Source: a virus. Taken from it: a DNA stretch of 42,834 nucleotides. The stretch lies in IMG/VR virus record IMGVR_UViG_3300025896_000006, positions 1-42,834 of that record; one strand, given 5' to 3'. A program made the translations under genes and the position numbers. Within the stretch, counting starts at the first letter, position 1. Every line of letters begins with the position of its first letter. Of this stretch, positions 16,522 through 32,134 are shown piece by piece. The notes below the pieces were generated by a model that worked only from the letters and a program-made list of their open reading frames with translations, did not search any database and had not been told where the DNA came from.

Positions 16522-17727
16522 TTATACCCAAGAAGAAGCGTCTTGCTTCACGTAAGTGATAGCATCTTTCATTTGATCGAATACCTTAGAACCGTAAAGC
16601 ATCCAAGGGTATACGTAGCGGCCCAATCGCTTTTCAGCAAGACGGAACTCTACGCTTGGGCTCTTTTGAGCAACCAAGTCAATCGCACCACGCTTCATAA
16701 ACATAGGGAATGAAGAGTGAGAGGTGATAGCAAAGTTAGCAGCAGCTTCAGACATCGCAAGGTCACCATTACCAGTGATGGTAAAGGTTGTGCCGGATGG
16801 AGTAGTAGCAGCAACATTAGCTTTCAAAAGTTTGCGGCGAGATACAGCAGAAAGCTGGATCCACTTAGTACCAACACCAGTAGCACTGTTGTTGATAGCG
16901 TTAGCCAAGTTGATCATAGTATCAACTGCGTTAGTTTCAATTAACACGTTTCCAGCGGTAGAACCGATAGAAGACACGAAAGTGAAAGTAACACCACCCA
17001 AAGTGAAAGTTTCAGCGTTGGATGGGTTGTTGGTTGTAGCACCGAAAGTGATTAAGGTGCTGAATGGTACGTTGTTAGAAACAACGATATCAAAACCAAA
17101 ACGCTTTGCAACCATTCCGTTGTCGGAAACAGTTTCACCAAAGCCGGTTTCACGGGCACCTACGTACAAACGTAGAGTTTCAAGCAAGCGGTTACCGATA
17201 ACGGCAACACGTTCACCTACAGGTACATCTTCAGCATCAAGCTTACGAGCACCTACAGCAAACATATTTGCAATGTTGCTGGTGGAAATAGCGATAGAGC
17301 CAGTTCCAGAACCACCCAAGTCTTGCGCAGAGATGAAACCACGAGCATCGCTGTAGTGGCTCAAAACACGTTGGTCAAGGATGTTGTTCAAAACGCGTTG
17401 AGCGTCAGCTGCATATTGAGCAGCAGAATCCCACTTGTTTTGGATTTTGTCGAGGTCATCGACGTAGAAAGGTACTACTTTTGCAGTATCTACAGAAAGG
17501 TATTCATCAGTAGCAGTCAAATCATTGAAAGTGCTGATATCAGTACCCTTAGTGTAGGTCTGACCCGCTAAGTACGAGCGGTATGGTTTGTGCAAAGTAT
17601 CTCCATCACGAAGATCTGCGCGTAGTTCGGTGTTAGCCAAACCAAGAGCAACAGATTCCTTGAAGAAAATGCCTTGCATTTCAGCTGCCCAGTATTCCGG
17701 GTTAAAAGCTGTTAATTCATTGGCCAT
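16522..17727 (-). CDS. Major capsid (coat) protein with inserted domain
   Basis: A 401-aa protein. The N-terminus, MANELTAFNPEYWAAEMQGIFF, and the middle part with YVDDLDKIQNKWDS and RVLNNILDQRVL are typical of HK97-fold coats of the P22/podovirus type. Residues about 220-325 (FTLGGVTFTFVSSIG through FTITGNGDLAM) look like an inserted beta domain; the HK97 core resumes with FPMFMKRGAIDL. The gene lies downstream of the portal and scaffold genes as expected. The leader AAAAACAAAGACCAAT is A-rich with no Shine-Dalgarno sequence. Confidence 0.85.
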   Translation of the reverse strand: MANELTAFNPEYWAAEMQGIFFKESVALGLANTELRADLRDGDTLHKPYRSYLAGQTYTKGTDISTFNDLTATDEYLSVDTAKVVPFYVDDLDKIQNKWDSAAQYAADAQRVLNNILDQRVLSHYSDARGFISAQDLGGSGTGSIAISTSNIANMFAVGARKLDAEDVPVGERVAVIGNRLLETLRLYVGARETGFGETVSDNGMVAKRFGFDIVVSNNVPFSTLITFGATTNNPSNAETFTLGGVTFTFVSSIGSTAGNVLIETNAVDTMINLANAINNSATGVGTKWIQLSAVSRRKLLKANVAATTPSGTTFTITGNGDLAMSEAAANFAITSHSSFPMFMKRGAIDLVAQKSPSVEFRLAEKRLGRYVYPWMLYGSKVFDQMKDAITYVKQDASSWV

Positions 17728-17784
17728 ATTGGTCTTTGTTTTTCTTAATTACTTAACAAATAATACGAATACTTCCCCAAGACC

Positions 17785-18414
17785 TTACTGGTCTTTAAGC
17801 CACTTCTTGTATTCGCCCCATTGTTCACGCCCTTCGGCGGTCGATAGGTCGAAGTCAGATGGCTTGGCATCTGCGAAGTCAGCCTTAGCGAAGCTTTTCT
17901 GCTTTTTCGAAATTGTCGCGTCTTCAATCTTTTTCTTTTCTGCCTCTTCCCCTTTCAGGAAATTGATGTACTTAGAATTAGCAGCTTGAGTAACTGACAA
18001 GTTATTCGATTGAGCGTACTTCTTGATTTCACCGCGAATTTCTTCGCTCACGTCCAACGCGTCAAGGTCGCGCTTGAAGAGTTTCGCTTCAAGACGTGCG
18101 TCCACATCATCCTCGGTGAGAGTGACGTTAGCCGGTGGGCTTTGTTTTTCGGACGGCTTTGGTTTTGGTTTTTCTTCTGGTTTAGCCGGCTCTTCTTTTG
18201 GAGCTTGCTTAACCCACTTGCCCGTTTCCGGGTCTTTGACCTTGCCTTCAGCTTTCATAAGGCGAGCGAAGAGCTGCTTATTCTTGCCTTTGACACTTTC
18301 TATATCTTCCTCGTCGTCTTCGTCGTCGAGGACTATATCGTTGAGATCTAAGTCCTGATCTTCAACTTCATCGCCTGTTTGAGAGTTAGGCTTCTCGATT
18401 TCTGGATCTGCCAT
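17785..18414 (-). CDS. Scaffold-like acidic protein (209 aa)
   Basis: It starts MADPEIEKPNSQTGDE. An upstream extension to 18474 lacks ATG and crosses a hairpin, so I prefer the ATG at 18414. The N-terminal half is extremely acidic (VLDDEDDEED), followed by a basic Pro/Lys-rich linker and a helical C-terminal part with FAKADFADAKPSDFDLST. The gene sits directly upstream of the coat gene, the classic scaffold position. Identity rests on composition and gene order. Confidence 0.7.
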   Translation of the reverse strand: MADPEIEKPNSQTGDEVEDQDLDLNDIVLDDEDDEEDIESVKGKNKQLFARLMKAEGKVKDPETGKWVKQAPKEEPAKPEEKPKPKPSEKQSPPANVTLTEDDVDARLEAKLFKRDLDALDVSEEIRGEIKKYAQSNNLSVTQAANSKYINFLKGEEAEKKKIEDATISKKQKSFAKADFADAKPSDFDLSTAEGREQWGEYKKWLKDQ

Positions 18415-18494
18415 ATTTGGGAGGGGTTTGGATTCCCCATTTCTGCAACTATTAGAAGAGCAGTTGCCGCTCAAAAAAACAACGTCATTACGAC

Positions 18495-18546
18495 GCTGTT
18501 TTAACCACCTAAGAGCTTTGCAGAGAACTTAAGTGGCTGAAACAGC
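18495..18546 (-). promoter_or_regulatory. Long RNA hairpin upstream of scaffold/coat genes
   Basis: Two 19-base arms (18495-18513 and 18528-18546) pair with 16 Watson-Crick pairs, two G-U pairs and one mismatch around a 14-base loop. It lies in the leader of the scaffold-coat transcript, 80 bases before the start codon. There is no U-tract, so an RNase-processing or regulatory role is more likely than termination. A short palindrome, AGCTTTGCAAAGCT, lies at 18552-18565 and repeats part of the loop. Confidence 0.55.
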
Positions 18547-18579
18547 ACCATAGCTTTGCAAAGCTTTTAGTATTTAGTT

Positions 18580-18834
18580 TTATACTCCATAATCGTTTTT
18601 ACCCGGCTTCGGTTTTTCCGGAGAGCCAGCAAAACTAATTATTTGCTCAAGTATTTGTTGGAGTTTGGTATGAGCTTTTTTCTGCGCCTTCAGTTCGAGG
18701 GCCTGATCTTGTGCCTTCGAGTATTCCTTCACATTCGAGATATCCTTAAGGGAATCAAGTTGGAGTGTGAGAAATTCTCGAAGGTCACGACCAGTTTCGG
18801 ACTGAAGAACTTCTTTAAGCCTCTTCAGATCCAT
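18580..18834 (-). CDS. Small charged helical protein (84 aa)
   Basis: It starts MDLKRLKEVLQSETGRDLRE at 18834 behind a strong ribosome binding site (AAGGAGAT), overlapping the end of the 110-aa gene by 20 bases. A longer frame reading up to 18972 exists but is Lys/Leu-biased and overlaps that gene. The sequence is helical throughout and rich in K, E and Q, with a PEKPKPGKNDYGV tail. It lies between portal and scaffold genes; its function is unknown. Confidence 0.6.
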   Translation of the reverse strand: MDLKRLKEVLQSETGRDLREFLTLQLDSLKDISNVKEYSKAQDQALELKAQKKAHTKLQQILEQIISFAGSPEKPKPGKNDYGV

Positions 18835-19147
18835 CAGAATCTCCTTCCTTCGGAGCTTCTTCAGGAGCAGCTTCGTCGGCAGGGGTTTCATCAGCAGGAG
18901 CTTCGTCTTCAACTTCAGCGAGTTTCTCTTCGAGACCTTCGCCTGCAGCTTTAGCAGCTTCGCCGCCTTCACCAGCTTCGATCTCGCGCTTGGCGATCTC
19001 GCGTAGCTGTTCGTTCAGCTCACCTTTATAAGCAAAGAACTTATTCAATGTCATAGCCATCTCATCGATAAGCTCTTCCATTGTTTTCACGTACTTCATA
19101 TTGATAGTACGCTTCTTTCCTTCGTAATAGTTTTTATCAAATGCCAT
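18815..19147 (-). CDS. Acidic-tailed protein (110 aa) in the head operon
   Basis: It starts MAFDKNYYEGKKRTINMKYV. Residues about 20-65 are helical (MEELIDEMAMTLNKFFAYK) and residues about 75-110 are a low-complexity tail rich in Glu, Ala, Pro and Asp. The acidic tail is of the type found in small head-assembly proteins. It is in a tightly packed head operon with overlapping neighbours. No family is recognised. Confidence 0.65.
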   Translation of the reverse strand: MAFDKNYYEGKKRTINMKYVKTMEELIDEMAMTLNKFFAYKGELNEQLREIAKREIEAGEGGEAAKAAGEGLEEKLAEVEDEAPADETPADEAAPEEAPKEGDSDGSEEA

Positions 19148-19161
19148 AAGTAGAAATTGGA

Positions 19162-19179
19162 GGGGCGGGGAGCCGCCCC
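19162..19179. terminator. GC hairpin between two head-operon genes
   Basis: GGGGCGG/CCGCCCC form a 7-bp perfect stem with a 4-base loop between the stop of the 82-aa gene and the start of the 110-aa gene. No T-run follows on either strand, so read-through is expected; a role in mRNA stability is plausible. Confidence 0.45.
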
Positions 19180-19186
19180 GTTAATT

Positions 19187-19435
19187 TTATTCTTCGATTA
19201 CTTCTTCAGAAACTTCTTCAGAAACTTCTTCAGCATCTTCGCTGGGAGTTACCTCATCAGCAACTTCGGTTTCTTCAGTTTCGATAGGAGCTTCAACCGG
19301 AGCTTCTACTACTTCTTCGGAAGCAGGAGCTTCACCGGAAACAGCAGCCGCAGCCGCATCAGCTTCTTCAATGCTGGAACCATTCTTCAACGCGTCAGCG
19401 CGAGCTTGGTCAGCGGGATCTGTAAATTCACCCAT
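19187..19435 (-). CDS. Small acidic low-complexity protein (82 aa)
   Basis: It starts MGEFTDPADQARADALKNG behind a good ribosome binding site (AAAGGA, at about -9). After residue 30 it consists almost entirely of E, A, V, S, D and T (a VSEEVSEEV-type pattern). It follows the portal gene by 27 bases. Such acidic peptides in head operons are often minor scaffold or portal-associated proteins, but this cannot be shown here. Confidence 0.55.
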   Translation of the reverse strand: MGEFTDPADQARADALKNGSSIEEADAAAAAVSGEAPASEEVVEAPVEAPIETEETEVADEVTPSEDAEEVSEEVSEEVIEE

Positions 19436-19461
19436 TTGAGAATCCTTTCTTGATTAGTTGA

Positions 19462-21261
19462 TTAATATTGTGGAGAGATTTCTTTCTGCGACATCTCCTT
19501 ATTAGGAGACATCTGACCCTTCATTGCCATCTTGAGTTTTGCAGCCGTATCTGTACCATCACCCTCGGCCATCATAGATGGATCAGGAGGGGGAGGAGAC
19601 TTTGGCAAGTCTTCTACATCAATTCCTTTTCGCTTCATCGCACGTTCGATAAGAGCAGTGCGACGGACCGGATCAACTTCCAGCTGAATGAAGGTCGCAA
19701 GTGTCTGCAAGTCTTCAGTCATTGTGATGTTTTCACCAGAGATAACTACAGCGATTCGTGGTTTAACTTCATCAAGCCAGCCTTCTTCTAACCGGATCAA
19801 CTGTTCAGGCTCGGCCATAATTTCTGCGCGCTTCTTTTCTTTTAGCGCATCCCCAACTTCTTGTCCGTGAGGGGGCATCTTCAGCAGGTTCTTTACATAC
19901 CAGCTATTTACCAGCATATCGTAGTAACGATTCATCATTGCTGGATCACCAGTCAAGCGCAAAACATCTTTCGCCTTCAGGTTCTTAAGCATATCCGGCA
20001 TGATCCAATCTTGGAATACATCCTGAATACCGAGTGAGAGCTTTTGGCGTAAGAAGTCGTAAAGCTTGTTGGCATTCTGGTTCATCATCGCACCTAAGCG
20101 GAATGGAGTACCAGAAGGCATGGCTTCACCAGTTACTACTTCGTAAGAGTTGGTAAGTTTATCAGCTACATCCATCAAGCGGTTCCAGTCAGCGATTAGC
20201 TGATCAAGTCCGTGCATACGGATGTCAATTTGCTGCAAGTCAGTAGATCGGATTACATCCCCGTTCGCCATATCAGTGATGATGTTTTGAGCGAGCAAGT
20301 TATCCTGTGTTCGGAAAATAGTTTTAGAGGCCCATTCGAGACCGCGAGCAATCTGGTTAGAGATTTCATTAGCGCGGGTTTGAACATCGAATAGAATTTC
20401 AACGATACCTTCACGGAACCATCGGCCCTTGTAGCGACCGCGGTGAGCTTCTTTGTAAGGCATCGAGCCAATAGCTTGAGCGAACAATATATACTTCTTG
20501 TCATCAGCCTTCTCGGTCCGGCGTAAGCCGGCCACGATAATTTTTGCTAAGAGGTATTTATTTTTCGATCCGCCGTCACCCTTACCTTGAGCTTGGAAAA
20601 GATCGTACTCACTTACTTCACCATTACGTTCATAGATTTCGTAGTAAGGAGTTTCTTTGGATTCTGTAACACCTTCAGGGTTACGAGTAAAGCCGCGGTT
20701 TCCACAATCATTAATTACATTCTCAACATTATCCCATACGCCCATCTTGGCGCGAAGATCAGATTGGGTAAAGATGTGTCGTTCGATTACCGGAGTTTCA
20801 TTCAGGGTTTTAGCCTGCTGGTTGATAACATAAAAATCTTTAAGAGCTACACGTTCGTAGCCGCCCTTAACTTTCTTCCATACCACGTTACCCCAAGAAG
20901 AGAACTCTTCAACTGCGTCGTTGAGCTCTTCACCTTGCTGGTTGTCGCGCATCCATTCATCCAAAGCCAAATTACACAGAAGCATATAGCCTGCGTCTTT
21001 GTAGCTTTCAGAGTAATACTGGATAGCACTACTATTGAAGTCAATATTTTTTACTTCACTATCAACACGTGGCTGACTTACGTCGATCCACTGTTTGTAA
21101 TCGCCTTGGGCGGTAAGTTTTCCGGTTGGGTAAATGTTGTTCTGATACAACATTATGCGCTTAATCAGTTTGTACTGATTAAACTTATATCCTTCAGAGA
21201 TCTCGACCTTCCCTGTTAGATAGCTTTGGATTTCACTCTCAATGAGTTTAAAGATAGCCAT
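19462..21261 (-). CDS. Portal protein
   Basis: A 599-aa protein directly after the terminase gene. It has the portal layout: a helical N-terminus with YQNNIYPTGKL, a wing with a SSWGNVVWKKVKGGYERVA core, a RGRYKGRWFREGIVEILFD segment, and the stem and crown helices (ANEISNQIARGLEWASK; LMDVADKLTNSYEVVTGEAM). The C-terminal ~70 residues are hydrophilic, with a SPPPPDPSMMAEGD linker. Length and order fit podovirus-type portals. The leader TAAACAAACAAAAA has no Shine-Dalgarno sequence. Confidence 0.8.
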   Translation of the reverse strand: MAIFKLIESEIQSYLTGKVEISEGYKFNQYKLIKRIMLYQNNIYPTGKLTAQGDYKQWIDVSQPRVDSEVKNIDFNSSAIQYYSESYKDAGYMLLCNLALDEWMRDNQQGEELNDAVEEFSSWGNVVWKKVKGGYERVALKDFYVINQQAKTLNETPVIERHIFTQSDLRAKMGVWDNVENVINDCGNRGFTRNPEGVTESKETPYYEIYERNGEVSEYDLFQAQGKGDGGSKNKYLLAKIIVAGLRRTEKADDKKYILFAQAIGSMPYKEAHRGRYKGRWFREGIVEILFDVQTRANEISNQIARGLEWASKTIFRTQDNLLAQNIITDMANGDVIRSTDLQQIDIRMHGLDQLIADWNRLMDVADKLTNSYEVVTGEAMPSGTPFRLGAMMNQNANKLYDFLRQKLSLGIQDVFQDWIMPDMLKNLKAKDVLRLTGDPAMMNRYYDMLVNSWYVKNLLKMPPHGQEVGDALKEKKRAEIMAEPEQLIRLEEGWLDEVKPRIAVVISGENITMTEDLQTLATFIQLEVDPVRRTALIERAMKRKGIDVEDLPKSPPPPDPSMMAEGDGTDTAAKLKMAMKGQMSPNKEMSQKEISPQY

Positions 21262-22887: not shown

Positions 22888-23155
22888 CGAGTATTTTATT
22901 TAAGTGTTCCTGCTCTTCAGCAGTCAATTTTGTTTCTTCTTCCGGAATTTCAGTGTCCGCCGCAAGTTTTGGGAAAAGGTTCGGTGCCATTGAGCGTAGG
23001 ATGGAGTGCTTTAGTTCCATCTCGTGCTTCAGGAGCATCGTGTCTTCCTGCGACAGCAGCCACTTGATCTGTTTTCGAGCCATCTGACGAATTTCAAGCT
23101 CCAACTGCTTATCATCAATCTCTTCAGTTGGTTTTTGTTTCGTATTAGGCTTCAT
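22880..23155 (-). CDS. Small helical protein before terL (possible terminase small subunit)
   Basis: A 91-aa protein of charged helices (ELEIRQMARKQIKWLLSQED, then LKHEMELKHSILRSM) with an acidic C-terminus. It overlaps the terL start by 8 bases, the usual place for TerS. It has no recognisable helix-turn-helix and is shorter than typical TerS proteins, so the assignment is by position only. Confidence 0.45.
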   Translation of the reverse strand: MKPNTKQKPTEEIDDKQLELEIRQMARKQIKWLLSQEDTMLLKHEMELKHSILRSMAPNLFPKLAADTEIPEEETKLTAEEQEHLNKILDG

Positions 23156-23178
23156 AGTAGATACATTATAGCATATTT

Positions 23179-23544
23179 TCAGAAAAATTTCATCTCGATT
23201 TCAGTGGATAACTGTGTCATCTGCGCCACGTAGTCATCCCAATCCTTCACAACAAGAACTAAACCTCCCATTTTTCTGACATTGGCGTGGAATCCGATTT
23301 GCTCGGGTCGCAGTCGATCTTTGCCGGTTTTAATTTCGATGCATAACAGCCGCCCGAGTGGAAAAAGTACAGCAAAGATGTCGGGTAATCCGGACTTACT
23401 GGCAGGCCTAAATCCACTAAAGACCCCCGCTCGTACCACAGGTACGGGGAGCGTGTTTTGTCGCCAGGCGTATACACCGACGGAATAGAGGTGCTTAAGG
23501 ATGCGCTGTGTAAGATCATTGGTTGGACTTTGTTTTGGTTTCAT
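23179..23544 (-). CDS. VRR-NUC family nuclease (PD-(D/E)XK)
   Basis: A 121-aa protein with the VRR-NUC signature: GLPDIFAVL (metal-binding Asp), LLCIEIKTGKDRLRPEQIGF (catalytic E-x-K and the following Q) and a final LVLVVKDWDD strand. These stand-alone nucleases occur in phage packaging or replication modules, where they may cut branched DNA. It is the first gene of the long minus-strand operon and starts just after an extended -10 promoter. Confidence 0.85.
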   Translation of the reverse strand: MKPKQSPTNDLTQRILKHLYSVGVYAWRQNTLPVPVVRAGVFSGFRPASKSGLPDIFAVLFPLGRLLCIEIKTGKDRLRPEQIGFHANVRKMGGLVLVVKDWDDYVAQMTQLSTEIEMKFF

Positions 23545-23560
23545 ATGAAACAGTTATGAA

Positions 23561-23572
23561 ATAATTATAACA
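23561..23572 (-). promoter_or_regulatory. Extended -10 promoter for the packaging/virion operon
   Basis: On the minus strand TGTTATAAT matches the extended -10 motif TGnTATAAT, with the hexamer at 23564-23569. Transcription would start near 23557, 13 bases before the VRR-NUC start codon. No convincing -35 element is present, as is common with extended -10 promoters. Confidence 0.5.
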
Positions 23573-23602
23573 TATCCACAACTACAAGATGTCCACAGGG
23601 TG

Positions 23603-23608
23603 TATAAT
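23603..23608 (+). promoter_or_regulatory. Putative -10 element for the plus-strand 209-aa gene
   Basis: TATAAT lies 28 bases before the ATG at 23637. No good -35 is seen at the proper spacing. Together with the minus-strand -10 at 23564-23569 it forms a divergent intergenic region that also contains two TCCACA elements. Confidence 0.35.
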
Positions 23609-23636
23609 AGATACATATAAGTAATTGAATAGAACT

Positions 23637-24266
23637 ATGCGAAAAAAGAGAATAGTGAAGAAGATCCCCATCGGCTTCCATCAAGTCCAAATGGACTACC
23701 TCGAGAAAGCTGATGCCGACGGCTACGAAATCTCCTCCCTGATCCGGCAACTTGTGACCGATTGGGGCGAGGAAAAGTACCCGAAGATGAAGCCATATAA
23801 CAAGCTTGCGGAAATCAAAGCCAAGAAACTCGAGAAGGAGATCGAAGCCGACCAGGACTTCGAAGCAATGAGCAATGAGGACTATGCTGAAAAGATCCTC
23901 CGCGGTCAAGTCCGTGATGGCGGGCGCGTAGCCTTCCGTATGGTCAATGGTCGTGAGTGGTACACTCCGCTCAAAACCATCAAGGAGAAAACCCTTGAAA
24001 ATGACGATGCCATCCGCTTGCACCAAACCTTGCTCGACGGCACCGCAGAATGGTTCGGCGGGAAACCCCTCACCGAAGCTGATTATCGAGAGAGCTTGGA
24101 CGGATGGGTTGATCGTCAGCCGGCTTGGGATCAACGGCGCGAGCTCGGCTTGCCCGATAAGAGCGAGAAGGGCACTGACAGCCCCGCTACTGAACCCGAT
24201 CCTGAAAATGAGCCGTTAGGCGAACTCGAGGGAGAAGACCTTGTAGACATCAGCACAGAAGAGTAG
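23637..24266 (+). CDS. Protein with N-terminal RHH-like segment and acidic tail (209 aa)
   Basis: The first ATG is at 23637; a TTG 12 bases earlier is also possible. Residues about 8-45 (KIPIGFHQVQMDYLEKADAD, then ISSLIRQLVTDW) have the strand-helix-helix pattern of ribbon-helix-helix DNA-binding proteins. The middle is helical with GGRVAFRMVNGREWYTP. The last 40 residues are acidic and Pro-rich. It lies alone between a divergent promoter region and an intrinsic terminator, so it is probably a separately controlled regulator or DNA-binding protein. Base use is more GC-rich than in the late genes. Confidence 0.65.
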   Translation: MRKKRIVKKIPIGFHQVQMDYLEKADADGYEISSLIRQLVTDWGEEKYPKMKPYNKLAEIKAKKLEKEIEADQDFEAMSNEDYAEKILRGQVRDGGRVAFRMVNGREWYTPLKTIKEKTLENDDAIRLHQTLLDGTAEWFGGKPLTEADYRESLDGWVDRQPAWDQRRELGLPDKSEKGTDSPATEPDPENEPLGELEGEDLVDISTEE

Positions 24267-24282
24267 GCGCACAAAAAAATGA

Positions 24283-24309
24283 CAGCCCCCACCCCGGGGC
24301 TGTTTTTTG
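24283..24309 (+). terminator. Intrinsic terminator after the 209-aa gene
   Basis: CAGCCCC/GGGGCTG form a 7-bp stem with a 6-base loop, followed by TTTTTTG. It starts 16 bases after the stop codon. A preceding A-run (24273-24279) also gives it some ability to work in the opposite direction. Confidence 0.85.
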
Positions 24310-25037
24310 TTGTTAAGTACCTAAGCTTTCAGACCCCACCCCCTTGCAGGGCAGTGGGTTCAAAATGTTTAGGAATATGGTAGGGGTGGTATATAAAAAT
24401 TTTTAGAAAGTACCGGGCCGTCTTGCCATATACCCCCCTTCGGTTCATCTGATCGCTTTTATTTTTAAGGCACGCACGCACGCAGCACCCACCCACCAAA
24501 AAAGCACGTAAAAAAACACCCCCACCCTTGGCATATTCAATAAATACAAGCGTCGCACAATAAAGCAATGCGCGACACGCTCGACAAGTGGCGCAGTTAT
24601 GCGGGATTCCGAAAGCGAAAGAGAAAGCGGGTAAAAAGTAACAAAACGAAATGCGAAACGCATTGAATAAAAAGTAAATGATCTTAACAAATATTTTATA
24701 AGATCATAAGTACATAGATGATACAATAAAAAAATAAGAGATTTTTTTTTTTTGATATACATACTAATCAGTGTGTAACAATCGACAATAAAGATACCAT
24801 TTTGTCAAGTTTTTAACGACTTATCCACTTTTTACAACACACTTATTATATCATTGTCAATAATGTGCTATAACTAAACAATTATAACCGCTTCTATTAT
24901 ATCGCTATGAGGTATATTATTAGATAACTTTTGATAGTCATATTAGATACTATATTAATATCCCAATAGATACCCAGTTAAAAACTCCCTTATTATACCA
25001 ATGAAAATACCTTAAACAATATTTTCTAATAAAAGCC
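24310..25037. other. A/T-rich gene-free control region (possible replication origin)
   Basis: No convincing gene is seen over about 730 bases. It contains C/A-rich tracts (24470-24530), a GAAAG-rich stretch, the palindrome AATGCG-AAA-CGCATT at 24650-24664, a run of 12 T, the DnaA-box-like TTATCCACT (24821-24829) and repeated TATTATATC elements (24846, 24895). AT content rises strongly after 24660. An origin or regulatory role is inferred from composition, position at a strand switch and the DnaA-like box. Confidence 0.4.
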
Positions 25038-25038
25038 C

Positions 25039-25067
25039 TTGACAAATATTTTTCAAGGGTATATAAT
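25039..25067 (+). promoter_or_regulatory. Consensus sigma70-type promoter (TTGACA-N17-TATAAT)
   Basis: TTGACA at 25039-25044 and TATAAT at 25062-25067 are separated by exactly 17 bases, a perfect match to the housekeeping consensus. Transcription should start near 25074 and read the accessory block. It is the strongest promoter seen in the window, so early and high expression is expected. Confidence 0.88.
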
Positions 25068-25117
25068 AAGAGAGTAGAAAGTAAATAACCGGGCACAGCC
25101 CGAGAAAACAAAAACAA

Positions 25118-25252
25118 ATGACATTCTTTCACTGGTTCGGCCGTGTGTGTAGAAATAGAGATCATAAGCACGCAATGGCACGACACAACCGCATCATTAT
25201 TAATCACTATAAAAATGGCCGAAGCGTCCGAAGATTCACGAAATGCTTGTAA
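25118..25252 (+). CDS. Tiny basic ORF at the head of the accessory transcript (44 aa)
   Basis: It starts MTFFHWFGRVCRNRDHKHAM and is strongly basic, with many R, H and K. It is the first ATG after the consensus promoter, but there is no Shine-Dalgarno sequence and it overlaps the zinc-ribbon ORF in another frame. It could be a leader peptide or non-coding. Confidence 0.35.
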   Translation: MTFFHWFGRVCRNRDHKHAMARHNRIIINHYKNGRSVRRFTKCL

Positions 25253-25322
25253 AATGTGCGGATCGCCAAAACTATATAAAAACGGGTTTTGCCGCGATTG
25301 CCACGAGTTCATAAATAAATAG
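25215..25322 (+). CDS. Mini zinc-ribbon protein (35 aa)
   Basis: The protein has two CxxC knuckles, CKMC near residue 12 and CRDC near residue 26, separated by SPKLYKNGF: a complete minimal zinc ribbon. Such tiny zinc-ribbon proteins are common early phage products that bind host factors or nucleic acid. It starts within the preceding 44-aa frame. The intact four-Cys pattern makes a real gene likely although no ribosome binding site is evident. Confidence 0.6.
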   Translation: MAEASEDSRNACKMCGSPKLYKNGFCRDCHEFINK

Positions 25323-25336
25323 CGAGCAGATCCAAC

Positions 25337-25392
25337 GGCTGAAATGATTCAGCCCGCGGACTTGATCACCATTTAACAATTAATCGATCAAG
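25337..25392 (+). promoter_or_regulatory. Tandem hairpins before the 101-aa gene
   Basis: GGCTGAA/TTCAGCC (25337-25354, 7 bp, ATGA loop) is followed by CTTGATC/GATCAAG (25361-25392, 7 bp). The second stem ends five bases before the AAGGAG ribosome binding site. They could form an attenuator or protect the start region. Confidence 0.45.
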
Positions 25393-25408
25393 AAGCAAGG
25401 AGCAGTTT

Positions 25409-25714
25409 ATGAAAATAGTTACTATTAGCCAAGTTGGCTACAATCACCCGAGCCAAGCAAATTGGAGCTATGGCATATATAAAATTGATCTGATCGACAC
25501 AGAGCAAAAGTATTGCCAAAGCTACACAGTAAAAGAAAATTTCGGCGGGGATGATCGCTTGCGCGCCAAGGTTCGCGAAGAATTAGGCGCGGAGATGATC
25601 GAGACAACGAGCGTATACACAGGCACAGGCACGCAGAAAATAACAGGCGTGGCGAAGCTATGGAACGCCGAAGGTCCGGAGATTTTCGAGGCTATACAGA
25701 ATTTTCTTAAATAG
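25409..25714 (+). CDS. Accessory protein (101 aa), unknown function
   Basis: It starts MKIVTISQVGYNHPSQANW behind a strong ribosome binding site (AAGGAG, 6 bases before ATG). It appears to be a small alpha/beta protein with a G-D-D-R-L-R-A-K-V-R-E helix and a final helix. Another gene with the same GAAGCAAGGAGCA leader follows, so both belong to one transcript from the 25039 promoter. Codon choice (GCG, CGC, GCA) differs from the late genes. No family is recognised. Confidence 0.6.
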   Translation: MKIVTISQVGYNHPSQANWSYGIYKIDLIDTEQKYCQSYTVKENFGGDDRLRAKVREELGAEMIETTSVYTGTGTQKITGVAKLWNAEGPEIFEAIQNFLK

Positions 25715-25719
25715 TTTAT

Positions 25720-25754
25720 CGATCATAGCGCAGGCATTGCTTGCGCCTTGATCG
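25720..25754 (+). promoter_or_regulatory. Two-part hairpin between the 101-aa and 292-aa genes
   Basis: CGATCA/TGATCG (outer, 6 bp) and GCGCA/TGCGC (inner, 5 bp) form one long interrupted stem immediately after the 101-aa stop codon. No U-tract follows, so it is likely a processing or attenuation element. Confidence 0.45.
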
Positions 25755-25770
25755 GCAAATTAGCCGGTCG

Positions 25771-25795
25771 CACCTTGAAAACTGAATAGAAAAGC
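25771..25795. repeat. 25-bp inverted repeat, left arm (flanks the 292-aa gene)
   Basis: The reverse complement of this stretch matches 26700-26724 at 23 of 25 positions. The arms lie just before the ribosome binding site and just after the stop of the 292-aa gene. The core TTGAAAACTGAATA resembles elements seen in Gram-positive rRNA/tRNA leaders, but I cannot confirm a relation. Confidence 0.7.
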
Positions 25796-25813
25796 AGAAG
25801 CAAGGAGCATTTT

Positions 25814-26692
25814 ATGAATAAATATTCCGTTTTACTTGATGGACGCATTGATGCGGACATTGTAGACAGCGGGCAAGCCATTGACGTATTAGCCAAGGCT
25901 TGCGGACAGTACACCTCAAACGAGGCGCAGGAGCAGTCAATTGACGGGGAGCGTTACGTGATCGAGTACGTGATCGGAGAATATGATCACGAGGCGCGCG
26001 TGCTTGCGTGGCTTAATGAAGACGCGGGCAGGTTCACGGATGATCAAGTCATTTCGGCCGGTCCGTTTATCGGTTACTCAAAGTATGTTGATGCGCAGGA
26101 GAAGGCGAAAAAGCCCGTTTTGTTGCCTGGTGCGTGGCTTGCGCTCGAGTGCCCCGAGGCATTCAAGGCGTTAGTCAAGCACTGGACCGAGCGAATGGAT
26201 GAAGCAGCCTGGAGCTATTACGATTACGATTTGGACATTGCCGACGAGTTATGCGGGCAGGTTCAAAAAGCGATTGACGATTACCAGGTCGAGCAGTACA
26301 ACGAATGGCTTAAGGGCGATTACCGCAATTGGGCGGGAGTTCTGAAAGAAGCAGCCCGAGCGATCGGATGCGAAGCCGTCGAATACGACGAGAAAAAGGA
26401 TCAAGTCACGCTTATTTTCACCGAAGGCGAAGCCGAGGATTTTATGTTCGGTCACACTTTCGGCAATGAAGACGAAGAATGGTCCAAATTGTCCGAGCGC
26501 GAGAAGCAGGGCACGCTTGAAACAGCTGTTATAGACTGGATCAACGGCAAGGCGGGCGCAGAGATCGCCAAACAGCACGAAGAGACACGCAAACGCCGCG
26601 AACAGTGGCAAAGAGAAAAAGAGATCCGCGAGAAGCGGGAGCAGGAAGCCGAAGCCGAGCGAATCGCGAAGCTTAAGGCAATGACAAAATAA
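25814..26692 (+). CDS. Accessory protein (292 aa) with charged coiled-coil tail
   Basis: It starts MNKYSVLLDGRIDADIVDSG behind AAGGAG. Residues 1-90 appear alpha/beta. The middle is rich in Trp, Tyr and acidic residues (YYDYDLDIADELCGQVQKA; QYNEWLKGDYRNWAGVL). The final 45 residues are an E/K/R/Q coiled coil. It has no membrane segment and no known catalytic motif. It is enclosed by a 25-bp inverted repeat and its GC-leaning codon use differs from the late genes. The function is unknown; some acidic phage proteins of this type inhibit host factors, but nothing here proves that. Confidence 0.65.
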   Translation: MNKYSVLLDGRIDADIVDSGQAIDVLAKACGQYTSNEAQEQSIDGERYVIEYVIGEYDHEARVLAWLNEDAGRFTDDQVISAGPFIGYSKYVDAQEKAKKPVLLPGAWLALECPEAFKALVKHWTERMDEAAWSYYDYDLDIADELCGQVQKAIDDYQVEQYNEWLKGDYRNWAGVLKEAARAIGCEAVEYDEKKDQVTLIFTEGEAEDFMFGHTFGNEDEEWSKLSEREKQGTLETAVIDWINGKAGAEIAKQHEETRKRREQWQREKEIREKREQEAEAERIAKLKAMTK

Positions 26693-26699
26693 TTAATTA

Positions 26700-26724
26700 G
26701 CTTTTCTATTCAGTTTTAAGGGTG
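26700..26724. repeat. 25-bp inverted repeat, right arm
   Basis: This is the partner of 25771-25795, with 23 of 25 pairs matching in opposite orientation. In RNA the two arms could pair over the whole 292-aa gene; in DNA they resemble the ends of a small mobile unit. Confidence 0.7.
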
Positions 26725-26743
26725 CGGAATTAATACCATTTAT

Positions 26744-26902
26744 ATGGAAGTAAAATTGAAGGTTAAAAATGCGCAGGTCGAGGCGGTCACACGCTATATA
26801 TCGCGCATCAAAGGCACCAAGAAAGCCTTGCGCAATGCGCAGGTGAAGGTGATCGAGCAGGAAGGCGAAGGCTTTACGCTTATTAGTTATACCCTTGTTT
26901 AA
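26744..26902 (+). CDS. Small NAQV-repeat protein (52 aa)
   Basis: It starts MEVKLKVKNAQVEAVTRY and contains a second NAQV at residues about 31-34. Both copies are encoded by the 11-base repeat AATGCGCAGGT. The protein is a basic alpha/beta peptide ending LISYTLV. No Shine-Dalgarno is present. The in-frame use of both repeat copies favours a real gene. The function is unknown. Confidence 0.5.
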   Translation: MEVKLKVKNAQVEAVTRYISRIKGTKKALRNAQVKVIEQEGEGFTLISYTLV

Positions 26903-26947
26903 TTCTGATCAAGGGTATAGTATTAAGATTATTATTAATAGAAGTAT

Positions 26948-27025
26948 ATGAAGAATATTATATACACAGCAGTGTTTATGTTCGCACTATGGCAGGGCAC
27001 GCTCTTGTCCATTCCGCAGGCATAA
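26948..27025 (+). CDS. Signal-peptide-like mini-ORF (25 aa)
   Basis: It starts MKNIIYTAVFMFALWQGTLL and ends SIPQA: a basic start, a hydrophobic core and a small-residue end, as in a bacterial signal peptide. The TAA stop lies immediately before an AQV repeat copy. Reading on after a frame change gives AQVAIPAPAYAHQP, so this may be the start of a decayed secreted protein. Real expression is uncertain. Confidence 0.35.
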   Translation: MKNIIYTAVFMFALWQGTLLSIPQA

Positions 27026-27078
27026 ATGCGCAGGCGCAGGTAGCAATACCCGCGCCGGCATATGCGCACCAACCCTGA
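26989..27078 (+). CDS. Overlapping mini-ORF with NAQAQV (29 aa)
   Basis: It starts MAGHALVHSAGINAQAQVAI and ends AYAHQP. It overlaps the preceding signal-peptide-like ORF in another frame and has no ribosome binding site. I list it because it carries the extended repeat copy in the NAQV phase; it may be only a fragment. Confidence 0.2.
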   Translation: MAGHALVHSAGINAQAQVAIPAPAYAHQP

Positions 27079-27142
27079 ATTATTATTGCGGGGCATTGAT
27101 GCGCAGGTGCCGGCGATTCAGACCGCCGGAGTTGTGCGATCC

Positions 27143-27225
27143 CGCGTTCATCACGTGAGGCGGGATCGCCTCCTTGCTTCTAATAAAAACCCGATAGCAA
27201 GGCGGGAGAAAAACAAAAAGACAAT
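27143..27225 (+). promoter_or_regulatory. Two strong hairpins before the membrane ORF
   Basis: GCGATCCCGC/GCGGGATCGC form a perfect 10-bp stem with a 14-base loop near 27137-27170. CCTTGCT/AGCAAGG form a 7-bp stem around 27173-27203. The following ORF starts at 27224. No U-run is present, so they are regulatory or processing candidates rather than terminators. Confidence 0.5.
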
Positions 27226-27436
27226 GGCAATATACGAGAAAGGCGAAGCTGTTTTAAGAGACGGCAAGCCGAATGCGCAGGTAAAGGCGCATAAGAATGT
27301 AGCCGCACTATTGATCGCAGCACTTGTGATCTTATTGTTGGCAACAGCAGGTTTTTTCTACGCAGTAGAGAAGACGGCAGGGTATTTGAGCAGTCAGTTT
27401 TCGACTGATGCGCAGGTACAGTCACATTTAGAGTAG
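27224..27436 (+). CDS. Single-pass membrane ORF (70 aa), probable N-terminal part of a split gene
   Basis: It starts MAIYEKGEAVLRDGKPNAQV. One hydrophobic segment (VAALLIAALVILLLATAGFF, about residues 27-46) forms a TM helix, followed by a short periplasmic-type stretch ending STDAQVQSHLE. A longer in-frame start at 27062 crosses the hairpins and is less likely. The downstream lysozyme-like frame continues in the -1 phase. Removing the 11-base repeat at 27407-27417 would join both frames into one membrane-anchored protein. It is either a split/disrupted gene or two adjacent genes. Confidence 0.55.
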   Translation: MAIYEKGEAVLRDGKPNAQVKAHKNVAALLIAALVILLLATAGFFYAVEKTAGYLSSQFSTDAQVQSHLE

Positions 27437-27489
27437 CCAAGAATCCAATACCTGAGGCTAAAGCTGCAGAGGTAGAACCACAACCTGAT

Positions 27490-27768
27490 GTGGCGTTGGA
27501 TAAAGTGGTCGCTACAATGTTTATTCTCGAAAGCTCTGGAGGTAAGTACGTTAATTGTCCCGCTGGTACCTACAACGGTTACGGTTACAGACAAAATAAG
27601 CGTGAATGGAAGTGCTTCCCGACTCAAGCAGAAGTAGTGGGTTACGTTAAAGAGCTGATGGCAGAGCGCATCAAATCGATGGGCTTACCGACAGCACTTT
27701 GTTACTACCAGTCAGGTCATAAAGTATCTAACTGTGAGTACTATAGAAAATTCTTAAAGTTACAATGA
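27490..27768 (+). CDS. Lysozyme/SLT-like domain protein, probable C-terminal part of a split gene
   Basis: The frame is open from 27409; GTG at 27490 and ATG at 27517 are possible starts, neither with a ribosome binding site. The residues ATMFILESSGGKY match the Glu-Ser-Ser-Gly catalytic motif of lytic transglycosylase/lysozyme folds. They are followed by YNGYGYRQNKREWKCF and LCYYQSG, with three Cys that could pair outside the cytoplasm. If fused to the upstream TM ORF it would be a membrane-anchored cell-wall hydrolase. Codon use is more like the rest of the genome than the preceding block. Confidence 0.55.
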   Translation: MALDKVVATMFILESSGGKYVNCPAGTYNGYGYRQNKREWKCFPTQAEVVGYVKELMAERIKSMGLPTALCYYQSGHKVSNCEYYRKFLKLQ

Positions 27769-27935
27769 TTCAATTTATTAAAAACAAGTTATGTAAATGG
27801 GGTATTCACAGCCATAAGATTAAAGTTGTTTATCCTCAGTGGGAGTTGAAATGGGATGCGCTCCCGCAATTCTATTGCTTGTGGTGTAAACAAAATATCG
27901 GACAGGTATTTGGCAAACCACCAGAAAACTATTAG
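27765..27935 (+). CDS. Small protein (56 aa) overlapping the lysozyme-like gene
   Basis: It starts MIQFIKNKLCKWGIHSHKI by a 4-base ATGA overlap with the previous stop, which indicates coupled translation. It has a C-terminal FYCLWCKQNIG Cys pair preceded by C and H near residues 10-17, possibly one small zinc site. The function is unknown. Confidence 0.5.
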   Translation: MIQFIKNKLCKWGIHSHKIKVVYPQWELKWDALPQFYCLWCKQNIGQVFGKPPENY

Positions 27936-27967
27936 TAGCTTGACTCAGTGGAGGGCTGAGATGAGGC

Positions 27968-27976
27968 TGTTATAAT
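27968..27976 (+). promoter_or_regulatory. Extended -10 promoter giving a near-leaderless helicase mRNA
   Basis: TGTTATAAT at 27968-27976 matches TGnTATAAT. The expected start of transcription is about 27983, the A of the helicase ATG itself. No Shine-Dalgarno is present, consistent with leaderless translation. Confidence 0.5.
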
Positions 27977-27982
27977 TATTCT

Positions 27983-29314
27983 ATGATTCCACTATACGAT
28001 TATCAAAAAGATGCAGTTGACCTTATGCTTGCGGGCAAAGTTTTAAACACCAGCAAGGTTGGTACAGGCAAAACTTTGATGGCATTAGGTTGCATAGAAC
28101 GATTGCAGGCTCGAACAAATTTAGTGGTCGCTCCGAAGTCCCTGCTGGTGCAGTGGTCTTTGGAGATTCAGAAGTTTACAGACCTTAAGCCTTACGTCAT
28201 ACAAGGCACGCCAATCAAGCGGTTCAAGCTATATGCGGAGTACATCGCGGACCCGAACCCTAAGGTTCTGATTGTCGGTTACGAAACGTTGCGTTTAGAC
28301 ATCGCACGCGTAGCTGCAGTTGTATTTGACGTTGTGATATTTGATGAGGCTCACAAATTGAAGGAGCCTAACACGCAGCTGAAAAAGAAACTAAAGTTTT
28401 TGATTGCCCGCCATCGGTTCGGATTATCTGGCTCGCCGGTGGTCAATCATTATGGTAATACCTATAGCATTTTGAACACGCTGCTGCCCGTGCAGTTCCC
28501 TAATTACTACCAGTTCATTGCTAACTTCACCATTAAAAGCCAGCATAAGGGGTTGTTGATCTTCCGGGATCAGGATAAGATCCGGCAGATGTTTGCTCCC
28601 TATATAGTCAGTAAAAATCTTGAGGACGCAGGGAAGTCACTGCCGCCACTGCAAGAGATAGAGATTCCGCTTGAATTATCAAGCAAGGAGCGGAAGATTT
28701 ACGATAAGATGTTGATGGAGTTATTATTTGAGTTTGAAGAGGGAGATGTGACTAAGCTGTCAAGCCCTATGATGCTGCAAAATGCGCTGGCTAAGATCGG
28801 TAAACTTCAGGAAGTCGCTGATCACCTCGCTCTTGTCGGTGATCACACCGAAAGCAGTAAGCTTGATGTGCTTAAAGAAATACTGGAAGATCAGGTCATG
28901 GAAGACGAGAAGGTTATTATCTTTACGCGTTTTTCTCGGATGGCTACTATACTTGCCATTGAGTTGAAGGCTCATTTGATTACTGGCGCAGTTGGTACCA
29001 TTGCCCGCGGTTCTATTCTTGATGAGTTTCGGACAAGGAGAGGGAAGCAAATACTCGTGATGACTAACGCCGGGCGTGAAGGTCTGAATATTCAGGAAGC
29101 TAACATTGTGATCATGTACGATCAGGACTACACCGCAGCTGGAATGGAACAGCGCATTGGCCGGGCGTACCGGCTCGGACAAACAAAGCACGTACGCGTT
29201 TATCATTTACTTGCCAAAGGTACTATTGATTACCGGATCAGGAAGTTATTGGCCCGGAAGCAAGCACTGGCTGATGATCTTATGGACACTATTAAGAGTT
29301 TGCTTTATGAGTAA
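27983..29314 (+). CDS. SNF2-type DEAH helicase/translocase
   Basis: A 443-aa protein with the SF2 motifs in order: Q-like YDYQKDAV, Walker A TSKVGTGKTLMALG (about residues 23-36), Ia LVVAPKSLLVQW, II VIFDEAHKLKEP (about 112-123), III LSGSPVVN, IV VIIFTRFS, V TNAGREGLNIQ and VI QRIGRAYRLGQTK. The last motif with LGQ is typical of SNF2/RapA relatives. The protein is compact, with no extra DNA-binding domain, like phage helicases used in replication or recombination. Two small genes follow in the same operon. Confidence 0.9.
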   Translation: MIPLYDYQKDAVDLMLAGKVLNTSKVGTGKTLMALGCIERLQARTNLVVAPKSLLVQWSLEIQKFTDLKPYVIQGTPIKRFKLYAEYIADPNPKVLIVGYETLRLDIARVAAVVFDVVIFDEAHKLKEPNTQLKKKLKFLIARHRFGLSGSPVVNHYGNTYSILNTLLPVQFPNYYQFIANFTIKSQHKGLLIFRDQDKIRQMFAPYIVSKNLEDAGKSLPPLQEIEIPLELSSKERKIYDKMLMELLFEFEEGDVTKLSSPMMLQNALAKIGKLQEVADHLALVGDHTESSKLDVLKEILEDQVMEDEKVIIFTRFSRMATILAIELKAHLITGAVGTIARGSILDEFRTRRGKQILVMTNAGREGLNIQEANIVIMYDQDYTAAGMEQRIGRAYRLGQTKHVRVYHLLAKGTIDYRIRKLLARKQALADDLMDTIKSLLYE

Positions 29315-29513
29315 TTGGAGACATGGCCGTGAAAAGTACGGCAAAATTAGATCCGGTCAATTCTGGAAAAAGAAAGATAGCGGCATGGTTATGCGGATCA
29401 AAAACAAGAATGGCGGCGATAGATGGACTGTCGAATACAACTCGCCGGGCCATAGAGTGTGTCACACTATTGCCGCACGTATCATTTATCATTATTATGA
29501 CTTAGTAACTTAG
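29307..29513 (+). CDS. Small basic protein after the helicase (68 aa)
   Basis: It starts MSNWRHGREKYGKIRSGQFW, overlapping the helicase stop by 8 bases. It is basic and beta-rich (MVMRIKNKNGGDRWTVEY) with an HTIAARIIYHYYDL end. It could be a small nucleic-acid-binding protein; no family is recognised. Confidence 0.5.
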   Translation: MSNWRHGREKYGKIRSGQFWKKKDSGMVMRIKNKNGGDRWTVEYNSPGHRVCHTIAARIIYHYYDLVT

Positions 29514-29524
29514 AAAGGACTACT

Positions 29525-29728
29525 ATGAAACGAGACAAATACACCCTGAACGACTACATTAAGGAGCACCACCCATTAATTTGGGAGAAGTGGGAGAAGT
29601 TCCAAATAGAACGCAAGCGCGAAAAAGCACGCCTTGGTATGCGTGCTAAGTATGTGCCGACCGGCAATACGCCAGGTCGTCCGCGGATTGAAGAAGCTAA
29701 AAGTTCAGTCCAGCCTGTTCGCTCGTAA
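29525..29728 (+). CDS. Small charged protein (67 aa)
   Basis: It starts MKRDKYTLNDYIKEHHPLIW behind GAAAGGA. It is rich in K, E and R with a Pro/Arg-containing tail. Its last 32 bases overlap the 3' end of the opposing ATPase gene, so the two operons converge here. The function is unknown. Confidence 0.55.
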   Translation: MKRDKYTLNDYIKEHHPLIWEKWEKFQIERKREKARLGMRAKYVPTGNTPGRPRIEEAKSSVQPVRS

Positions 29729-30989
29729 GATCGAACTTAGTAGCAGGCGGTTCTTCTGTTGGTAATGGTTCTCCGGTGCCAAAAGCATCGGGATCCTTGC
29801 CGTCAAGATCCTGCTTGCCCATATTAAGTCCGCGATAAGTCGCCATCAGCTGTCGGTATTCTTCCTTTAGGATGTACTGCCAGCTGTGGGCGGTTTTTTG
29901 TATTTGTACTAAACCGACAGCCACAAGGTCTCCGAGGTAGAGCTTGATGAAAGGACGGCTCATTGAAAGCTGTTCTATCAAGCCGTTCTCGGTAGCAGTA
30001 GAGTACATAGTCAAGGCTTCAAGCAGGTCACGGCGTGACTGCGGGATGGAATCGAGGGCTACTTTGAAGAGGATTGCTTTGTCTCCTTCGGTTAGAACTT
30101 CAGGCTCGCCGTCGTAGCGGTGCACTAAAAGCAGTCCATAAGCTACACATACGAGTGCTTTGGCGAAACGGGGGGTCATCTCGAGGGTCGGGCGCATCTC
30201 CTGATCCTTGTCACGGCTGTACTGGTTGCGCTTCACGGCACTGCGGGCACGGGTTGTGAACTCGGCTAAGGTCACGAGCTCTTTGCGGGTTCCAAGATCC
30301 ATCTTAGGCATAACGAAACCGCCTTCAGCGCGTTGTAGTTCCACTACGTCGTCGATTATAGGGTTCAGATATTCTTGGAAAGCAGCTGACATATCGGCTT
30401 TAGCTTTGTAGTCGGTGATCTCCTCGGTGGACATCATCGCTACCTCGAAGCGATCAGGCATCTCGAGTTGGTAGTAAAGATAGCGTTCACCCATCGCAGC
30501 GTTGCTCGAGGTGACTTCTTGGCTGTAGATTTCAGGGGTTACGCCGGCAATCATCCCGACTTTACCGCTCCACTGCACGTCTTCCCCGTTCCCGAACTTC
30601 TTTCGGTAGTCGCCATCAAAAATCTTACGCATTTGGCCCAAGATTTCAGCACGAGATTCCTTATCCTTCGATAGCATCGTGGTGTAATCCTTAATCAAAA
30701 GCGTACCATTCTTCGGCATCTGTGCCAGCAGTGAGTTCTGCGATTGACCGCGCATACCGGAAGCGAATGTTTTGGCGGTCATATCATCGATCTCCACCAC
30801 CCCCGTCACGGGTTTCATAGCCGACAGGATCATTGACTTACCGCCGGAAGAGTTACCAACGATAAACATCCAACTCGGAGGAGTTGGTAAGTAATTTGAG
30901 ACCATCGTGGCGCAGATAAGGCGAATGATCCCCTTGTCTGCGCGTAGCATATACTCATCTACTATATTTTCGAGGTCTTTTAGTTTCAT
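29697..30989 (-). CDS. AAA-type replication ATPase/helicase-like protein
   Basis: A 430-aa protein with Walker A IVGNSSGGKS (about residues 43-52) and GTLLIKDYTTML (about 94-105) as Walker B with Asp. FASGMRGQSQNSLLAQM precedes the B motif. The middle carries SSNAAMGERYLYYQLEMP, typical of D5/DUF927-like helicases in plasmids and phages. A winged-helix-like C-terminal part (ATENGLIEQLSMSRPFIKLYLGD) may bind DNA. It is the last gene of the operon with the CHC2 zinc-finger protein and probably acts in replication initiation. Confidence 0.75.
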   Translation of the reverse strand: MKLKDLENIVDEYMLRADKGIIRLICATMVSNYLPTPPSWMFIVGNSSGGKSMILSAMKPVTGVVEIDDMTAKTFASGMRGQSQNSLLAQMPKNGTLLIKDYTTMLSKDKESRAEILGQMRKIFDGDYRKKFGNGEDVQWSGKVGMIAGVTPEIYSQEVTSSNAAMGERYLYYQLEMPDRFEVAMMSTEEITDYKAKADMSAAFQEYLNPIIDDVVELQRAEGGFVMPKMDLGTRKELVTLAEFTTRARSAVKRNQYSRDKDQEMRPTLEMTPRFAKALVCVAYGLLLVHRYDGEPEVLTEGDKAILFKVALDSIPQSRRDLLEALTMYSTATENGLIEQLSMSRPFIKLYLGDLVAVGLVQIQKTAHSWQYILKEEYRQLMATYRGLNMGKQDLDGKDPDAFGTGEPLPTEEPPATKFDLTSEQAGLNF

Positions 30990-32134
30990 TAAAACATATT
31001 CTTGATTACTTCACGGACTACATTGACTGTAACTCCGTTGCCGAGGGTTTTGTATCGTTGCGTGTCGCTCAACGCTTGCGTCCAATTATCAGGGTATGCT
31101 TGAAGTCGTTCGCATTCTACTGGTGTTAGGCGACGGATCCGCATCCCGTCGAAGATGCCGTGCCGATCTTGTGCCGTGAGAGTGGAGGCGGGTTCGCCGT
31201 CTTCCTTGAATCGCCGTCCGTTCTGTCGCTTCTCGGGCCGGTCCGGAGTAAGCACAGGGATGGCTACTACTGCGTTATTGTCTCCGCTCTTATGGTAAGT
31301 AGCGCGGATGGTCGGGAAAATGTCTGCCTCTTTGACCTCTATACTGCGCTGTCCGTTTCCATAATGGGGAGTGCGGGTGAGGATGACGGGCTGACCGCTT
31401 CCGTCTTCACGGGCTCGGGCTGGGATGGTAGGGGCGATTCCTGATTTGATTTCTCGGAATCCGTTTCCATCTTTGTGGGTGCGGAGGGTTCCGACGCGAA
31501 CTTGTGCATCGAGTTTACCTTCAGCAACATACGTTCCGACTGCTGTTCCTCCTTCATAACGGGTGGTAAGGGTGTTACTGACCGGTCCCGGTACGAGAGA
31601 AGCCTCGCCGTCAGCTGATCCGAAAGAAAATACTTGTCGTCCACCGAATCCTCCAAGACATCCTGCAATGAACACTCGCTCCCGATTTTGGGGAACTCCG
31701 AAATTCTTGCTGTTAAGTACCAGTGCTTGGATGTCATAACCAAGTTCTGTAAGCGTGGACAATATGGTTTTGTAAGTTCGTCCGCCGTCGTGAGAAAGCA
31801 GTCCTTTAACATTTTCAAGTAGAAGATATTTTGGTCGCTTTTCTTTAGCAATCCTTGCGATATCAAAAAAGAGTGTGCCTCTGGTATCGTTAAATCCTGC
31901 ACGCTTTCCAGCAATTGAGAAAGCTTGGCAAGGGAATCCGCCAACGAGGAGGTCGAAGTCGGGGAGTTCTTCAGGGTTGATTTTGGTTGCGTCGCCATAG
32001 TTTTTGTGTTTGAATTGTTGTTCATATATTTGTATTGCGTACTTGTCGATCTCCGAGTAGCCGATGCACTCGGCTTTGTCGCCGATGCCGAGCTCGAAGC
32101 CTCCAATGCCGGAGAACATACTGAAGTATTTCAT
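30989..32134 (-). CDS. DNA (cytosine-5) methyltransferase
   Basis: A 381-aa protein with all key motifs in order: I FSGIGGFELG, IV GGFPCQAFS with the catalytic Cys, VI LLENVKGLL, VIII QNRERVF, then a target recognition region (about residues 165-330) with NTLTTRYEGG and SGIAPTIPARAR, IX RRLTPVECERLQAYPD and X GNGVTVNVV. It methylates C5 of cytosine in a recognition sequence I cannot predict. No cognate restriction endonuclease is adjacent. It probably protects phage DNA from host restriction. The leader AAATAAATAACAAA before ATG lacks a Shine-Dalgarno sequence. Confidence 0.95.
   Translation of the reverse strand: MKYFSMFSGIGGFELGIGDKAECIGYSEIDKYAIQIYEQQFKHKNYGDATKINPEELPDFDLLVGGFPCQAFSIAGKRAGFNDTRGTLFFDIARIAKEKRPKYLLLENVKGLLSHDGGRTYKTILSTLTELGYDIQALVLNSKNFGVPQNRERVFIAGCLGGFGGRQVFSFGSADGEASLVPGPVSNTLTTRYEGGTAVGTYVAEGKLDAQVRVGTLRTHKDGNGFREIKSGIAPTIPARAREDGSGQPVILTRTPHYGNGQRSIEVKEADIFPTIRATYHKSGDNNAVVAIPVLTPDRPEKRQNGRRFKEDGEPASTLTAQDRHGIFDGMRIRRLTPVECERLQAYPDNWTQALSDTQRYKTLGNGVTVNVVREVIKNMF

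Follow-up and report, generated by a model that had tools for sequence, protein, structure and literature searches.

Iterons are direct repeats that are clustered in one orientation with close and regular spacing, and may also lie within a gene, that for lambda O being an example. In cluster A mycobacteriophages, as far as the cited texts describe them, many short asymmetric DNA sites (stoperators) are bound by the repressor and halt transcription elongation (PMC9283540, PMC6550527). The locus described here lies in a virus record of 42,834 bases, an IMG/VR-type contig that was analysed over its whole length (the window), and carries a cluster of an 11-base word, RATGCGCAGGT, with points of likeness to both systems. 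The relevant features are as follows.

25039-25067: sigma-70-like promoter, 12/12 match, TTGACA-17-TATAAT, in the long intergenic stretch before the rightward genes; the only perfect match in 23000-30000
26090..26100, + strand: near copy (the seventh), GATGCGCAGGA, read as DAQE within ORF 25814-26692
26744..26902, + strand: small gene A, 52 aa, with copies 1 and 2 in frame; frame 2 favoured by the codon model
26768..26778, + strand: copy 1, AATGCGCAGGT, read as NAQV within ORF 26744-26902
26834..26844, + strand: copy 2, AATGCGCAGGT, read as NAQV, also within ORF 26744-26902
26948..27025, + strand: signal-peptide-like ORF, 25 aa, its closing TAA overlapping copy 3
27025..27041, + strand: copy 3, altered, AATGCGCAGGCGCAGGT, i.e. 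AATGCGCAGGC then GCAGGT, 17 nt, with the internal GCGCAG present twice
27098..27108, + strand: copy 4, GATGCGCAGGT, 5' of a terminator-like hairpin, probably intergenic
27157..27172, + strand: terminator-like hairpin between copy 4 and the next gene
27224..27436, + strand: putative membrane-anchor ORF; frame 2 favoured by the codon model over 27224-27406
27272..27282, + strand: copy 5, AATGCGCAGGT, read as NAQV within the membrane-anchor ORF starting at 27224
27407..27417, + strand: copy 6, GATGCGCAGGT, at the exact point of a reading-frame change
27418..27768, + strand: downstream open frame, coding-like immediately 3' of copy 6

Five exact copies of RATGCGCAGGT were found, all on the + strand (starts 26768, 26834, 27098, 27272 and 27407), and a count over the entire 42.8-kb record gave none outside 26768-27417. 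An earlier note on this DNA had reported six copies within 650 bases; the cluster itself stands, while the sixth member, at 27025, is an altered copy. The word is asymmetric, its first position being either A or G. The copies are spaced irregularly (66, 191, 73, 174 and 135 bases) without helical phasing, and their flanks differ, so that only the exact 11-mer is common to them. In 1000 dinucleotide-preserving shuffles of 23001-30000 (7 kb), the maximum multiplicity of any mixed-composition 10-mer per 650 bases was 1-3 and never exceeded 3 (0/1000), against 5 in the real region; the cluster is real and far above chance level. Other irregularly spaced 10-mers with at least four copies per 800 bases, across 1.59 Mb of window and related loci, mostly resembled repetitive protein genes by sequence, as far as they were inspected. 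The cluster is a non-random oddity, probably of an ordinary kind.

The phage has relatives among IMG/VR contigs, whose portal proteins reach 66% identity to its own, as do their head proteins. A similar density elsewhere, which the earlier note had named as an outcome that would undo its proposal, was not found: 38 full records of portal-sharing phages contain no copy of the word, so family composition does not account for it. No homologue of the small genes was covered by any of the related loci. Searches made directly with gene A, with the membrane anchor and with the downstream frame gave nothing in phage records or IMG/VR, collections that may omit the records nearest the window, and species genomes searched for the downstream frame gave nothing either; the one weak hit (L245) was spurious. 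The portal and head proteins that the family has in common are encoded at 16522-21261 of the window and in loci L047-L053 and L169-L244. For the head protein, a search of 50,697 phage records gave no more than four matches, all distant, the best below 30% identity.

Reading frames around the copies were scored with a codon model trained on the large genes of the phage. Copies 1, 2, 4, 5 and 6 all start at 2 mod 3 and copy 3 alone differs, so the frames hardly differ in phase, contrary to what had been claimed. The accompanying claim that each copy reads as (N/D)AQV is true of mechanically called ORFs, but plausible genes hold only copies 1, 2, 5 and 6. A lone-sequence structure model of small gene A has a beta-alpha-beta-beta arrangement (pLDDT 74) in which the two NAQV stretches fall where loops meet structural elements. 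The NAQAQV of copy 3 is read only in ORF 26989-27078, to which the codon model gives no coding support. The stretch around copy 4 (27062-27223) scores weakly and the copy lies upstream of the likely ORF start at 27224; it is probably intergenic and untranslated. A hydrophobic stretch in ORF 27224-27436 points to an N-terminal membrane segment, and this ORF, as read, stops 19 bases past copy 6. Minigenes of the form ATG-CGC-AGG-stop within the word occur just at copies 2, 5 and (longer) 3, which is near chance.

The single orientation of the copies, an exact core that accepts either purine at its first position, unshared flanks, and placement at genic as well as probably intergenic sites together fit asymmetric protein-binding sites. 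From this pattern we tentatively infer both binding and its purpose, namely that the copies are cis-acting protein-binding sites private to this phage, a reading to which we give somewhat less than even weight. On this view an unclassified tailed phage carries, in what is probably its early operon, short asymmetric direct repeats that all point along transcription and are candidate targets of a sequence-specific DNA-binding protein, as operators, stoperators or iterons are. The sites would regulate the operon or replication, and would be tolerated within the small genes in the (N/D)AQV phase. All copies are within a + strand gene run downstream of the promoter-like site and near the cumulative GC skew minimum. 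An RNA hairpin signal was rejected, as the copies pair differently: no common RNA structure was found among them, and predicted pairings vary from copy to copy. Among the window proteins scanned, Pfam identified two methyltransferases, an SNF2-type helicase, a primase-type zinc ribbon and a PD-(D/E)XK nuclease; no repressor or DNA-binding protein for the word was found among those scanned with Pfam and PHROGs, several small proteins matching no family. Two further observations count against evolved binding sites: they leave the frame break at copy 6 unexplained, and the four genic copies share a phase, for which a site acting purely as DNA has no need.

The frame break would be explained by a close rival, the spread of inert or mobile inserts. 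In this explanation, which we consider less likely than binding sites, a functionless 11-12-base unit was copied repeatedly into the locus via micro-insertion or templated repair, breaking at least one gene. The codon-favoured frame is 2 up to 27406 and 1 from 27418, with copy 6 lying exactly between, and the register offset between the membrane-anchor frame and the downstream frame equals the copy length. In frame 1, no ATG, GTG or TTG occurs from the TGA at 27406-27408 to the GTG at 27490, yet 27418-27489 is coding-like, and that TGA, the upstream close of frame 1, is made in part by copy 6. The frame switch and the matching offset mean that copy 6 either splits one gene or joins two genes with abutting frames. 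An ESSGG motif suggests that the downstream frame encodes a lysozyme-like enzyme; its structure model is of low confidence (pLDDT 54) and gave no useful fold match. Taken whole, 27224-27768 may be a membrane-anchored lysozyme-like gene that is broken or recoded, its frames out of register at copy 6. A recoding or bypass signal within the word was rejected, as copies 1, 2 and 5 would then upset their own genes and copy 6 has no slippery site.

The doubling of GCGCAG in copy 3, as expected of slippage, and word codons that are foreign to the phage overall also speak for inserts. Against them, copies 1, 2 and 5 leave their frames unshifted, so a single fixed 11-mer insert cannot account for all copies; such an insert at every copy conflicts with the frames of ORF A and the start of gene C. 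Nor is copy 3 responsible for the end of the upstream ORF: the in-frame stop of ORF 26948-27025 persists with or without copy 3 counted, and the gene-interruption reasoning used for copy 6 fails there. Target-site duplications were looked for and none was seen, and a similar sprinkling is absent from the other viral loci scanned and, among the matches listed, from bacterial ones.

The earlier note had offered selection on the peptide as one of two readings. Small phage proteins would, in that case, use (N/D)AQV as a tag, a degron or a binding motif. This is now disfavoured and appears unlikely. In its support, all four copies that lie in plausible genes have one phase in common (chance 1/27), which the near copy at 26090 also has, and this is mild evidence that phase matters. 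The simplest reason may be that NAQV and DAQV are tolerable, whereas the other phases would give Met-Arg-Arg or Cys-Ala-Gly. The codons, however, are both rare and invariant. GCG and CAG are fixed across 5/5 exact copies, while in the phage 16% of Ala codons are GCG and 42% of Gln codons are CAG; under peptide selection alone the product for this invariance is ~1.4e-6 with phage usage, and ~0.003 if usage is taken from the neighbouring ORF 25814-26692 (15/33 GCG, 11/16 CAG). The synonymous variation expected of a conserved peptide tag is missing from the five copies. Open frames hold one [ND]AQV besides these; it belongs to the cytosine methyltransferase at 31510 and is written GATGCACAAGTT, in codons that differ from those of the word. 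Furthermore, copy 4 is probably untranslated, copy 3 is in an unsupported frame and copy 6 falls at a frame break. The fixed GCG and CAG, together with different codons in the sole other [ND]AQV, indicate a repeat kept or made as DNA, and the best reading is that RATGCGCAGGT is kept or copied at the DNA level and not as a peptide. The other suggestion of the earlier note, a spreading coding-phase unit, could still apply to a DNA unit. One form of it would be an 11-base micro-repeat that multiplies locally in the operon by a spreading mechanism of its own, biased to the harmless (N/D)AQV phase, with occasional gene breakage and perhaps derived from solenoid-rung DNA; this we consider improbable.

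Rungs of that kind were encountered when IMG/VR was scanned for paired words 56-86 bases apart. The scan returned 115 stretches, almost all of them 18-nt-periodic arrays coding ...SGNAQVYGDAQVSG..., against 1 stretch for the reversed word, and three translated array examples match the YdcK beta-solenoid family PF18836. RAT GCG CAG GTN is a standard phage YdcK rung, YG[ND]AQVSG. The earlier note had named no known tag of such sequence; this calls for amendment, as [ND]AQV in identical codons and frame is a YdcK rung, though the window itself has no array. A YdcK array in the window was rejected on the lack of a profile match (none to PF18836 in the record at E <= 10) and of 18-nt-periodic rungs. 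The arrays thus share with the window the identical 11-mer and the same NAQV/DAQV frame, but their rungs are in tandem within one protein, whereas the window copies are isolated, without SG/YG flanks, and spread across several genes. It is accordingly a slim prospect that the word was seeded from a YdcK array via recombination with another phage, even though the purine at position 1 and the frame fit the N/D alternation of the rungs and the reversed word is so much scarcer. The missing rung flanks (SG/YG codons) and the lack of a PF18836 match stand against it, and elsewhere the arrays are not accompanied by stray single copies. Large collections may hold some repeat family for many 10-mers, and the word also occurs in a second, unrelated family, the repeats upstream of AAA_14 genes, so neither the YdcK nor the AAA_14 matches are good evidence of common origin.

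A metagenomic assembly or record artefact, conceivable in an IMG/VR-type virus contig, is very unlikely, as the word occurs at six places with unique flanks and just 11 bases in common, an overlap too short for usual assembler k-mers.

The neighbouring ORF 25814-26692 (292 aa) stands apart from the remainder of the phage in its GCG-rich codon usage (15/33 Ala) and is bracketed by a 27-base inverted repeat (25769-25795 and 26700-26726, 93%). An acquired or invertible cassette would look like this.

Should the copies be protein-binding sites, they would reveal a control or origin region, so far unrecognised, in an environmental phage group that is widespread yet unstudied, and the word would be a ready bait for the DNA-binding protein of that group. 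Should they be inserts, they would be a rare instance of a very short sequence that has multiplied at a single locus.

Species genomes were also scanned, with pair spacings chosen to avoid the 18-base period. The matches listed were mostly coding-sequence pairs or short local repeats, and no sprinkled cluster comparable to that of the window was found among them in bacterial genomes. A striking class consisted of 34-bp-phased repeats adjoining AAA_14 ATPase genes. In L272, L283, L298, L313, L324 and L357 (and L312, by sequence), AAA_14 genes are preceded by 2-5 direct repeats with the core ATRCGCAKGT at 34 (35) bp, while in L266 the AAA_14-like ORF lies further off; Pfam was run on two of the AAA_14 proteins. 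These repeats look like a conserved operator array across two phyla, and no paper combining DUF4143 and direct repeats was found among those searched.

The AAA_14 (DUF4143-type) repeats of Bacteroidales and Clostridia resemble the window copies in being direct repeats with the 10-base core ATGCGCAGGT, but theirs are non-coding, strictly phased at 34 bp, with A/T flanking the core and, in clear cases, an adjacent AAA_14 gene, none of which is seen in the window. An operator of this type was rejected for the window, where the spacings are no multiples of 34, the flanks differ and no AAA_14 is present among the proteins scanned. With iterons the window copies share clustering as direct repeats in one orientation. 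Their spacing of 66-191 bases is irregular, unlike the regular, close and helically phased spacing of an iteron array, which was rejected, and no initiator was recognised in the window. Stoperators, as far as the cited accounts describe them, are distributed genome-wide, whereas here all copies are confined to 650 bases; in common with the sites in those accounts, the window has many copies of a short asymmetric site (five of them exact, in a + strand gene run) in a single orientation relative to transcription.
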